Positions 3,248 to 42,258 of a stretch of DNA of 64,000 bases are shown here, piece by piece (the first letter of the stretch is position 1; every line of letters begins with the position of its first letter). The notes under the pieces are model-generated. The model was not told the DNA's origin and made no database searches. It worked only from the letters and a program-made list of their open reading frames with translations. The stretch is from Parvularcula maris (GTDB lineage: Bacteria; Pseudomonadota; Alphaproteobacteria; Caulobacterales; Parvularculaceae). The DNA is taken from positions 83,275 through 147,274 of the forward strand of contig NZ_JANIBC010000004.1 of assembly GCF_024505085.1 (NCBI RefSeq), written 5' to 3'. The translations under genes and the position numbers were made by a program.

Positions 3248-3713
3248 TCTGGTTCCGCGAATCGGTCACTCGCTTGGCTTATGCCGAAGCCGCTCGAAGG
3301 TCTTCGCTGTTGTATTTACTGGTGTTCGGTGGGCGCTACAACCTGCCGTAGCAAACCTAAGGCGCGAGGAGCGCAATACACCGCTGTCCTGGTTGATGGT
3401 GCATGGCGGCATCGCCTTCATGCACCTGACGGTCCGCCTTTCCGCGTAGGGCGGTCAGCCCCGTAGGAACTGGCCGCGTTGCTGCGGTGGCGGCTTGGCG
3501 CTGGTAGCCTTTCGGTTTCGCGGCGGAGGGTCTGGTTCCGTAGGGTGGACGCTGGCAGGCGGCCACCCTGCGGCGGTGGTGCTTGGTGAGGTGGCCGCTG
3601 CTCGCGTCCACCCTACGGGTTGGCGCCTTTGGCTAGGTGGCCGCCTCCTGCGTCCACCCTACGGGCTGCGTTCTTTGTTTGTTCGTTGGGTGCCGGTCAG
3701 CTACGCCCCTCCC
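3248..3713. other. Gene-free stretch between AT-rich gene and RAYT; REP repeats and decayed palindromes
   Basis: No convincing gene is present. The right part holds REP arms (listed separately). A weaker palindrome (GGTGCATG at 3398 and CATGCACC at 3419) looks like another decayed repeat. The open frame that extends the transposase upstream to 3495 runs through the REP arms and is not considered coding. Confidence 0.6.
3539..3663. repeat. REP/BIME cluster upstream of RAYT (three arms)
   Basis: One forward arm (3539-3567, CGTAGGGTGGACGCTGGC...) and two inverted arms (3590-3617 and 3636-3663, ending CGTCCACCCTACG) form a REP-type palindrome cluster. Each arm has an outer GTAGGGTGGACG block and an inner GGTGGCC(G) block. 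The same repeat recurs at 4181-4258, 25898-25980 and 63428-63519. Confidence 0.85.
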
Positions 3714-17184: not shown

Positions 17185-19515
17185 CTATGCCGCGCTGAGG
17201 AAGCTGGCGATCACCTTCTTGTTGCCGACCTCGTCGAACTCCACCTCGAGCTTGTTACCCTCGGATCGCATGACCGTCCCTAGGCCGAACTTCTTGTGGC
17301 TGACGCGCTCGCCCTTGCAGAAGGTCTCGTCGCCGGGGGCGGAGGAGGCGACCAGGCGCGCTGTCCCTTCGATGGACGGATCGGCGTTGCGCTTGCGTCC
17401 ATGCTGGCGGGCGCGCTTCCAGCCGGGGGTCTCGTAGCGCGAGGAGGTCTCCTCGAGCACGAGGTCGGCAAAGCGCGACTGGGCGGGCATTTCTTTCGCC
17501 GAGACGCCGTAAAGGCCGGGTTCGGAAAGAACGTCAACCTGATCCTCCGGCAGCTCGTCGACGAAGCGGGAGGGGAGGGCGTTCTGCCATCGTCCGTAGA
17601 CCTGCCTGTTGGCAGCAAAAGAGATCCGGCAGCTCTCCCGCGCGCGGGTGATGCCGACATAGGCGAGGCGCCGCTCCTCCTCGAGCCCCGCATTACCGCT
17701 TTCATCGAGGCTGCGTTTGGAAGGGAAGATCTCCTCCTCCCAGCCGGGCAGGAAGACCACCGGGAACTCCAGGCCCTTGGCGGCATGAAGCGTCATCAGC
17801 CAGACCTGTCCGTCCTCGGAGTCGCTCGTCCGCTCGGCCACGAGGCTGACATGGTCGAGATAGCCCTCCAGCGTCTCGAACTCGGAGGCCGCGTTGACGA
17901 GCTCTTTCAAGTTTTCGAGCTTCGAAGGAGCGGAGACATTCTTCGAGTTCTTCCAGTAGTCCGTATAGCCTGACTCCTCCAGCACCATCTCGGCGAGGGG
18001 GGCGGGGGCAGTCTTCTCCGCCTCCTCACGCCAGCGCTCCAGGCTTGCGAGGAAAGCCATCATGGCGGTCTTCGCCTTGCCCTTCAGCTCGTTCGTCTCC
18101 AGCATGAGCTGGCCGGCGGCTGCGAGCGACATGCCGTTCTGGCGTGCGATGACGCTGAGCTGGGTCAGGGTCTTGTCGCCGAAACCACGGCGCGGCTTGT
18201 TGATGATGCGGCTGAAGCTGAGATCGTCGGCGACGTTCCGCACCAGGCGCAAATAAGCGAGCGCGTCCCGCGTCTCCTCCCGCTCATAGAAGCGAGGCCC
18301 CCCGACCACCTGGTAGGGGATGCCGTTGGTGTTGAAGCGCTCCTCGAAGGCGCGCATCTGGAACGAGGCGCGCACCAGGATCGCCATATGCGAGAGAGAG
18401 CGGCCCTTCATCTGCTCCGCCTCGATGTCCTCGGCAATGGTCCGGGCCTCTTCTTCGCCGTCCCAGACGCCGCGCAGCTTGATCAGCTCGCCGCCGTCCT
18501 GATCGGTGAACAGCGTCTTGCCCAGGCGGCCCTGATTGTTGTCGATGACGGCGCTGGCCGCCGCCAGGATCGGCGCGGTGGAGCGGTAGTTCTGCTCCAG
18601 GCGGATCACTTTCGCGCCGGGGAAATCCTTCTCGAAGCGGAGGATGTTCTCGACCTCCGCGCCGCGCCAGCCATAGATCGACTGGTCGTCATCCCCCACC
18701 ACGCAGAGGTTCGGCACCTCGCCGTCACCGCCCTTGGCGAGAAGCCTGAGCCAGAGATACTGCGCCACGTTCGTGTCCTGATACTCGTCCACCAGCATGT
18801 ATCGGAAGCGGCGGTGGTACTCCGCCTGCACCTCTGGCTCGCGCCGGAAGATCGAGATGTTGTGCACCAGGAGGTCGCCGAAATCGGCGGCGTTGAGGGT
18901 CATCAGCCGCTCCTGGTACTCCCGGTAGAGAGCAATGCCCTTGCCGTCGGCGAACAGGTCCGCCTCGTGCGGGGGCAGGTCCGAGGGCGTCTGCCCCTTG
19001 TTCTTCCAGCCGTCGATGACGGCGGCAAGGCCGCGCCCGGTCCAGCGCTTCTCGTCGAGGCCCGCCGCCTCGATCACCTGCTTGCAGAGACGGATCTGAT
19101 CGTCCGTGTCGATGATGGTGAAGCTCGGCTTGAGCCCGACGATCTCGGCGTGACGGCGGAGGATGTTGGCCGCGACTGAGTGGAAGGTGCCGGTCCAGCG
19201 CAGGCCCTCCAACTCCCCGCCGACGAGCTTGCCGATCCGCTCCTTCATCTCGCGCGCGGCCTTGTTGGTGAAGGTGACGGCGAGGATCTCCCAGGGCTTG
19301 GCCCGCTGGGACGCAAGGATATGAGCGATGCGCGTCGTTAGCGCCTTGGTCTTGCCCGTACCGGCCCCCGCCAGCATCAGGACAGGTCCTTCGGTGGTCA
19401 GCACCGCCTCGCGCTGCGCCTCGTTCAGCCCTTCGAGGTAGCTCTCCTCGCTGACATCGATCCGGTGCTCTTTCGGGGCGGCGCCGCTCATGGCGCGCTG
19501 GGATAGGGAAGCCAT
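17185..19515 (-). CDS. uvrD: UvrD/PcrA-family ATP-dependent DNA helicase
   Basis: 776 residues. A superfamily 1 3'-5' helicase for nucleotide excision and mismatch repair. Motifs in order: Q motif LNEAQREAV, Walker A GAGTGKTKAL, VTFTNKAAREMKERI (motif Ia), VDEYQDTN (motif II), GDDDQSIYGWRGA (III), LEQNYRS (IV), TLHAAKGLEF (V) and YVGITRARE (VI). The C-terminus KFGLGTVMRSEGNKLEVEFD is the UvrD/PcrA Tudor-like tail. Start ATG 19515 follows an AGGAG site. A GAAC-N7-GAAC LexA box is 22 bases upstream of the start codon, so SOS induction is likely. Confidence 0.95.
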   Translation of the reverse strand: MASLSQRAMSGAAPKEHRIDVSEESYLEGLNEAQREAVLTTEGPVLMLAGAGTGKTKALTTRIAHILASQRAKPWEILAVTFTNKAAREMKERIGKLVGGELEGLRWTGTFHSVAANILRRHAEIVGLKPSFTIIDTDDQIRLCKQVIEAAGLDEKRWTGRGLAAVIDGWKNKGQTPSDLPPHEADLFADGKGIALYREYQERLMTLNAADFGDLLVHNISIFRREPEVQAEYHRRFRYMLVDEYQDTNVAQYLWLRLLAKGGDGEVPNLCVVGDDDQSIYGWRGAEVENILRFEKDFPGAKVIRLEQNYRSTAPILAAASAVIDNNQGRLGKTLFTDQDGGELIKLRGVWDGEEEARTIAEDIEAEQMKGRSLSHMAILVRASFQMRAFEERFNTNGIPYQVVGGPRFYEREETRDALAYLRLVRNVADDLSFSRIINKPRRGFGDKTLTQLSVIARQNGMSLAAAGQLMLETNELKGKAKTAMMAFLASLERWREEAEKTAPAPLAEMVLEESGYTDYWKNSKNVSAPSKLENLKELVNAASEFETLEGYLDHVSLVAERTSDSEDGQVWLMTLHAAKGLEFPVVFLPGWEEEIFPSKRSLDESGNAGLEEERRLAYVGITRARESCRISFAANRQVYGRWQNALPSRFVDELPEDQVDVLSEPGLYGVSAKEMPAQSRFADLVLEETSSRYETPGWKRARQHGRKRNADPSIEGTARLVASSAPGDETFCKGERVSHKKFGLGTVMRSEGNKLEVEFDEVGNKKVIASFLSAA

Positions 19516-19536
19516 GGTGCTCCTATAACGGATTCA

Positions 19537-19551
19537 GAACGCTTCGGGAAC
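19537..19551. promoter_or_regulatory. LexA (SOS) box 1, in uvrD promoter
   Basis: GAACGCTTCGGGAAC fits GAAC-N7-GAAC, the direct-repeat LexA operator of alphaproteobacteria (GTTC-N7-GTTC on the uvrD strand). It lies 22 bases before the uvrD start codon. Confidence 0.8.
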
Positions 19552-19621
19552 GCAGCATCGGCAAACTTCCGCTCCTGTCCCAGGCTGAACCAGGCGTTGT
19601 GGATAACTTCCCACACGACCG

Positions 19622-19636
19622 GAACACCGCAAGAAC
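19622..19636. promoter_or_regulatory. LexA (SOS) box 2, between uvrD and dnaE
   Basis: GAACACCGCAAGAAC fits GAAC-N7-GAAC exactly. Midway in the gap; it could serve either direction. Confidence 0.7.
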
Positions 19637-19726
19637 ACTGGTGGTTTGCCCTTGCTGAGAAGCATCGAGCCAGCCTCGGGAGGGCCTGTTCTGCTGTTTG
19701 CTCTTGTTTTGTTCTCGTGTGTCTGC

Positions 19727-19741
19727 GAACGAGGGGAGAAC
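19727..19741. promoter_or_regulatory. LexA (SOS) box 3, before the 25-codon peptide
   Basis: GAACGAGGGGAGAAC fits GAAC-N7-GAAC. It ends 16 bases before the start codon of the small membrane peptide and eight bases before the end of its likely ribosome binding site. Confidence 0.75.
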
Positions 19742-19757
19742 AAAGAGGGTTTGAACG

Positions 19758-19835
19758 ATGAATATGATCAAGGACTGCGCTGGTTTTGCAACGCTTCTCG
19801 TGCTCCTCGCCGCGGCCGTAGCGGTGGTCGGCTAG
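19758..19835 (+). CDS. 25-residue single-span membrane peptide, candidate SOS-induced division inhibitor (SidA-like)
   Basis: A short frame, MNMIKDCAGF followed by a pure hydrophobic run ATLLVLLAAAVAVVG, i.e. a short charged/polar head and one membrane segment. An AAAGAGGG site (19742-19749) lies nine bases before the ATG and a LexA box directly precedes that. Caulobacter makes SidA, a 29-residue SOS-induced inner-membrane peptide that blocks FtsW/FtsN-dependent division; size, topology and regulation here match that idea, but I cannot align the two from memory. It lies 66 bases upstream of dnaE on the same strand. Alternative: a non-functional leader frame. Confidence 0.55.
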   Translation: MNMIKDCAGFATLLVLLAAAVAVVG

Positions 19836-19901
19836 AACCATCTCTCGGGTGTGGAGAAGGAGCCTGCCACGCGAGGGAGGGAATCGCCTAGCGTCTGGGC
19901 G

Positions 19902-23357
<3,456 letters not shown>

Positions 23358-42228: not shown

Positions 42229-42258
42229 GGTTCAGGTTCCGGCGGTGTTCAGCCTGCT

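Follow-up and report, generated by a model that had tools for sequence, protein, structure and literature searches.

The 25-codon open reading frame (ORF) at positions 19758-19835 of the 64,000-nucleotide stretch of DNA analysed here (the window) is, as we hold with considerable confidence, a divergent LexA-repressed ortholog of sidA, the product of which blocks septation in the presence of DNA damage, with FtsW as the probable target; LexA binding, induction, membrane insertion, the division block and the target are inferred. SulA is the gamma-proteobacterial solution to this task, and SidA has been described in Caulobacter. How cell division is arrested after DNA damage in most Alphaproteobacteria is an unresolved question.

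The ORF (MNMIKDCAGFATLLVLLAAAVAVVG) is located on the plus strand, is unannotated and encodes a peptide with one hydrophobic segment; its assignment rests on conservation, pN/pS and profile matches. An earlier note, made from the sequence alone, had drawn attention to a tiny frame with a box, a ribosome site and a hydrophobic segment, and these features are indeed in place. An exact LexA box (GAACGAGGGGAGAAC, 19727-19741, plus strand) starts 31 nt before the ATG, exactly the same distance as in the related genomes G001, G004 and G009, and a probable ribosome-binding site, GAGGG (19745-19749, plus strand), is recognisable from the sequence 8 nt before the ATG, where relatives likewise retain a purine-rich site. 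The best 19-residue hydropathy of the peptide amounts to 2.45, and there are no charges within the hydrophobic segment. With 25 residues, as compared to 25-40 in its relatives, the peptide is close to the minimum size for regulators of this kind.

Lack of conservation of the frame in relatives had been named as a point that would refute the proposal, yet each of the ten sampled genomes from the genus contains the ORF at the same place. The window genome (G000), G001, G004 and G009 contain gapless 25-mers with a pN/pS of 0.44, and 19 gapless 31-mers from sister genera yield 0.29, as opposed to 0.89-2.97 in shifted frames. Since the ratio is low in the frame of the ORF only, the sequence comparison identifies a real protein gene under purifying selection. 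That the ORF is spurious, and that the boxes merely control uvrD and dnaE, is scarcely conceivable: although it comprises merely 25 codons and no NCBIfam or Pfam model matches the peptide, the purifying selection is confined to this frame, and the ORF is conserved across families and recovered by the blind whole-genome search described below. A single-sequence search with the 25-amino acid peptide produced mostly unrelated matches outside the genus, and therefore profiles were needed to go further.

A pattern scan of the window confirmed the three exact copies of GAAC-N7-GAAC claimed before, at 19537-19551, 19622-19636 and 19727-19741, as well as the claim that they far exceed chance. At the density found in shuffles, 0.008 boxes are expected in 386 bases (Poisson P(≥3) ~1e-7, before any look-elsewhere correction), and the whole 64-kb window harbours six exact boxes on both strands versus 1.38 ± 1.10 in shuffles. 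In the absence of LexA-binding data, the motif is very likely the LexA operator in this genome, because exact boxes precede both lexA and uvrA: two are found directly upstream of lexA (C1:482680), at 482638 and 482664, and a single one ~75 nt upstream of uvrA (start near C14:4006, minus strand). The region upstream of recA in the same genome (L182) contains no exact box and only the imperfect site GAACAAAACGTGTAC. The LexA site of C. crescentus, GTTCN7GTTC, is the same site read on the opposite strand (PMC9578287).

One of the three boxes had been placed directly before uvrD, and this holds as well: the exact box at 19537-19551 belongs to the minus-strand gene (GAAC on the plus strand) and lies 22 nt before the uvrD ATG (19515, minus strand). 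It is identical in G009 and reads GAACGCCTCGTGAAC in G004. The divergent neighbour itself (17185-19515, minus strand) codes for a UvrD/PcrA-type DNA helicase, the best NCBIfam matches of which (PcrA, 781 bits; UvrD, 670 bits) remain under the equivalog cut-offs. No role can be assigned to the exact middle box, GAACACCGCAAGAAC (19622-19636, plus strand), which also occurs in G004, again 105 nt from the sidA box, and is degenerate in G009 at 103 nt. The 105 nt correspond to about ten helical turns, and the middle box, which is near neither start codon, might serve cooperative LexA binding or a second promoter of uvrD.

On the other side, the small ORF ends 66 nt before dnaE (19902-23357, plus strand), which encodes the DNA polymerase III alpha subunit DnaE1 (NF004226, 1405 bits, over the cut-off). 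TIGR00594 has a single match in the genome, and because this is the only DnaE-type polymerase, there is no dnaE2. A simple scan of 19480-19960 recognised neither a sigma-70 promoter nor a terminator; the sole dnaE is situated downstream of the presumed SOS promoter without a recognisable terminator in between. A GANTC site (GAATC, 19881-19885) is found between the small ORF and dnaE, inside the stretch GAATCGCCTA-CGT-TGG, which is conserved in G000, G004 and G009 and perhaps represents a CcrM/GcrA-type dnaE promoter.

The position of the ORF was compared in dnaE-upstream DNA from 100 genomes of the order, comprising the families f1 to f5, where f1 is the family of the window (Parvularculaceae), f3 denotes Caulobacteraceae-like genomes and f5 is another family of the order. 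Of the 100 loci, 87 contain a small membrane ORF in syntenic position (45/46 in f1, 27/27 in f5 and 15/15 in f3), and in 85 of these 87 an exact or one-mismatch box is found upstream (f1, 43; f5, 27; f3, 15) at a median distance of 37 nt. Farther upstream, 48.7 kb of the order loci contain no exact plus-strand box, and the module is absent at dnaE in the 12 genomes sampled from f2 and f4. The f3 peptides, encoded 40-150 nt upstream of dnaE, score over the curated 35-bit cut-off of NF033228 (NCBIfam, cell division inhibitor SidA), and because these matches share the place of the window ORF, the latter occupies the sidA locus, as judged by synteny. For C. crescentus itself, the adjacency of sidA and dnaE is inferred from the locus tags CCNA_02004 (PMC11034885) and CC1926 (PMC1839093) and from the Caulobacteraceae-like genomes. 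That sidA resides upstream of dnaE in relatives had escaped the earlier note, as had the occurrence of this arrangement well outside the order.

The placement of the ORF ahead of dnaE, unchanged across many families, together with the failure to find a terminator between the two genes, could also reflect a leader peptide, the translation of which tunes dnaE. We judge this very unlikely, given that the amino acid sequence has been conserved in the form of a membrane segment, that the gap between small ORF and dnaE varies from 10 to 263 nt in relatives, and that Caulobacter SidA at this very place works as a protein (PMC4211646). The operator arrangement of the sidA ortholog differs among relatives. 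In order loci with an exact box, a second, imperfect box precedes it in 36/41 cases in f1 and 12/13 in f3, mostly as GAAC-N7-GAAT and usually 17-18 nt before the exact box; neither the window nor any of its three closest relatives has this second box. Outside the order, TTGAC occurs 8-12 nt 5' of the box in 15/16 genomes, which would place bound LexA between -35 and -10.

The relationship to SidA is not apparent from direct comparisons. NF033228 matches neither the window peptide nor any other part of its genome at E≤10, and therefore the peptide is not filed in the SidA equivalog; likewise, the direct comparison of the profile of the window family (F1) with that of Caulobacteraceae SidA (F3) is not significant, so that the link to SidA requires intermediates. 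Family f5 provides such a bridge. The hhalign values are 1.3e-6 for F1-F5 and 3.8e-7 for F5-F3, and neither score was attained in 200 full shuffles or in 200 core-only ones. Run on six-frame segments of the 100 loci, the f5 profile matches 11 f1 and 13 f3 genomes, always at the syntenic place versus 25% expected by chance, and column-shuffled f5 profiles give at most six matches. The source peptides of the f1, f3 and f5 profiles were selected partly by motif, while the matches in other families were unfiltered. An out-of-order profile, built solely from outside peptides picked by box and hydrophobicity, finds 73 matching segments in the order loci. Of these, 72 are syntenic, including the window peptide (4.1e-5) and the SidA peptides of G253 (3.3e-5) and G050 (4.0e-5); 100 shuffled versions produced a mean of 1.5 matches and a best E of 0.007.

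The hhalign bridges and the common out-of-order profile thus demonstrate, within the limits of sequence comparison, that the window peptide is homologous to Caulobacteraceae SidA via intermediates. Together with the sidA locus and the conserved box and ORF, this bears out the likeness to SidA suggested earlier, while the comparison with SidA fails where it is made directly, by F1-F3 or NF033228. In common with SidA of C. crescentus (CCNA_02004; NF033228), the peptide features one short membrane segment following an N-terminal [KR][DE] pair and a LexA box directly upstream of its gene, and in Caulobacteraceae-like genomes sidA also precedes dnaE. Unlike SidA, it has 25 instead of 29 residues, lacks the characteristic FVWM stretch and is unmatched by NF033228, and its gene is preceded by one operator rather than the tandem pair common in relatives. 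The missing match, the non-significant F1-F3 comparison, the length, the absence of FVWM and the unrecognised sigma-70 promoter were counted against the ortholog reading.

To cover the class, an exact plus-strand box was sought within 450-480 nt of dnaE in a first set of 80 named alphaproteobacterial loci, where carriers include Parvibaculum, Sneathiella, Microvirga and Pseudolabrys, and in a second set of 100 additional genomes representing 80 families. Of the latter genomes, 16 contain the box before dnaE, and each of these harbours a membrane ORF with 22-60 codons that starts at most 160 nt past the box. The background rate of such ORFs is 16% in the corresponding windows of genomes without a box, and 18% on the opposite strand. 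The control spacings N5, N6, N8 and N9 were found in 0-2 genomes, and GAAC-N7-GAAC in reverse orientation in eight. The family profile A3 was also run, without regard to placement, against 232 whole genomes from the class and yielded 18 matches with E <1e-3, each preceded by an exact LexA box at a distance of 31-87 nt. Seventeen lie beside dnaE (16 by coordinates, G439 by a downstream DnaE motif), and the remaining one (G313) is found at a contig end; G038, G042, G307, G313, G359, G439 and G446 were outside the A3 build, some of them with near-identical peptides. The box-sidA-dnaE module can be recognised in a dozen or more additional families. In the Sneathiella-type loci L196, L201, L230, L271 and L350 the peptide carries K-S-x-F-E instead of K-D-x-x-A, with box and place unchanged.

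It is reasonably likely, then, that SidA is an old alphaproteobacterial SOS division inhibitor fixed between a LexA-controlled promoter and dnaE, such that a single SOS promoter halts division and perhaps also increases DnaE; in this case, SidA would have gone unnoticed across the class on account of its very small size and rapid divergence. The literature searched contains no paper describing a wide box-sidA-dnaE arrangement, yet the 2011 SidA and the 2004 LexA-regulon papers were outside its scope, and prior notice cannot be excluded. While this kind of protein is known, a member invisible to curated models and the wide distribution of the module in the class are new. For the further families, the module provides named candidate genes and predicts a shared late-divisome checkpoint, and it raises the question of why inhibitor and dnaE are linked.

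In the proposed mechanism, LexA bound at 19727 would repress the small gene until LexA cleaves itself in response to RecA on single-stranded DNA and the peptide is produced. The peptide would then enter the inner membrane, its short KD-bearing N-terminus probably remaining cytoplasmic, and would keep FtsW/FtsI/FtsN, the late septal synthase complex, in an inactive state until the damage has been repaired. LexA cleavage would also open the divergent uvrD via its own box, and the small-gene transcript may continue into dnaE. FtsW/RodA-type proteins are present in the genome.

The size of the peptide, its single hydrophobic segment and the LexA control would equally suit a membrane toxin under SOS induction, of the TisB/DinQ type, which depolarises the inner membrane and slows growth and is not a divisome inhibitor. 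TisB is amphipathic, whereas the hydrophobic segment of the window peptide is uncharged, and the homology to SidA via intermediates as well as the position at the sidA locus also render a toxin unlikely. TisB and DinQ of E. coli share with the peptide a length of about 30 residues and, as predicted for the latter, the membrane location and LexA control, yet they are membrane-acting toxins controlled by antisense RNA and not encoded upstream of dnaE. Small SOS-induced membrane toxins do exist, as exemplified by DinQ (PMC3567139).

As a homolog, the SidA-like window peptide is expected to act like Caulobacter SidA, a 29-residue inner-membrane protein and the primary SOS division inhibitor, which interacts with FtsW and FtsN and is suppressed by ftsW and ftsI mutations (PMC4211646). 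The filamentation of a Caulobacter lexA mutant is due to sidA (PMC12700426). Caulobacter DidA is also a small single-pass division inhibitor of the FtsW/FtsI/FtsN complex; in contrast to the window peptide, it comprises 71 residues and is SOS-independent and DriD-driven (PMC4211646), and it lacks a LexA box. YneA of Bacillus and SosA of Staphylococcus are single-pass division inhibitors under SOS induction as well, yet they are Gram-positive, larger and unrelated by name and literature (PMC13396833, PMC6851548), and the similarity is at most one of action.

Outside the uvrD-dnaE interval, an exact box on the minus strand (42236-42250) is located between a methyltransferase-like ORF (minus strand), 8 nt from its start, and a ComF-like ORF (plus strand); it is possibly a further SOS target, or due to chance. 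Another exact box, the AT-rich GAACAAACAAAGAAC at 3670-3684, is found directly 5' of a transposase-like ORF and is surrounded by the short repeats of that region.
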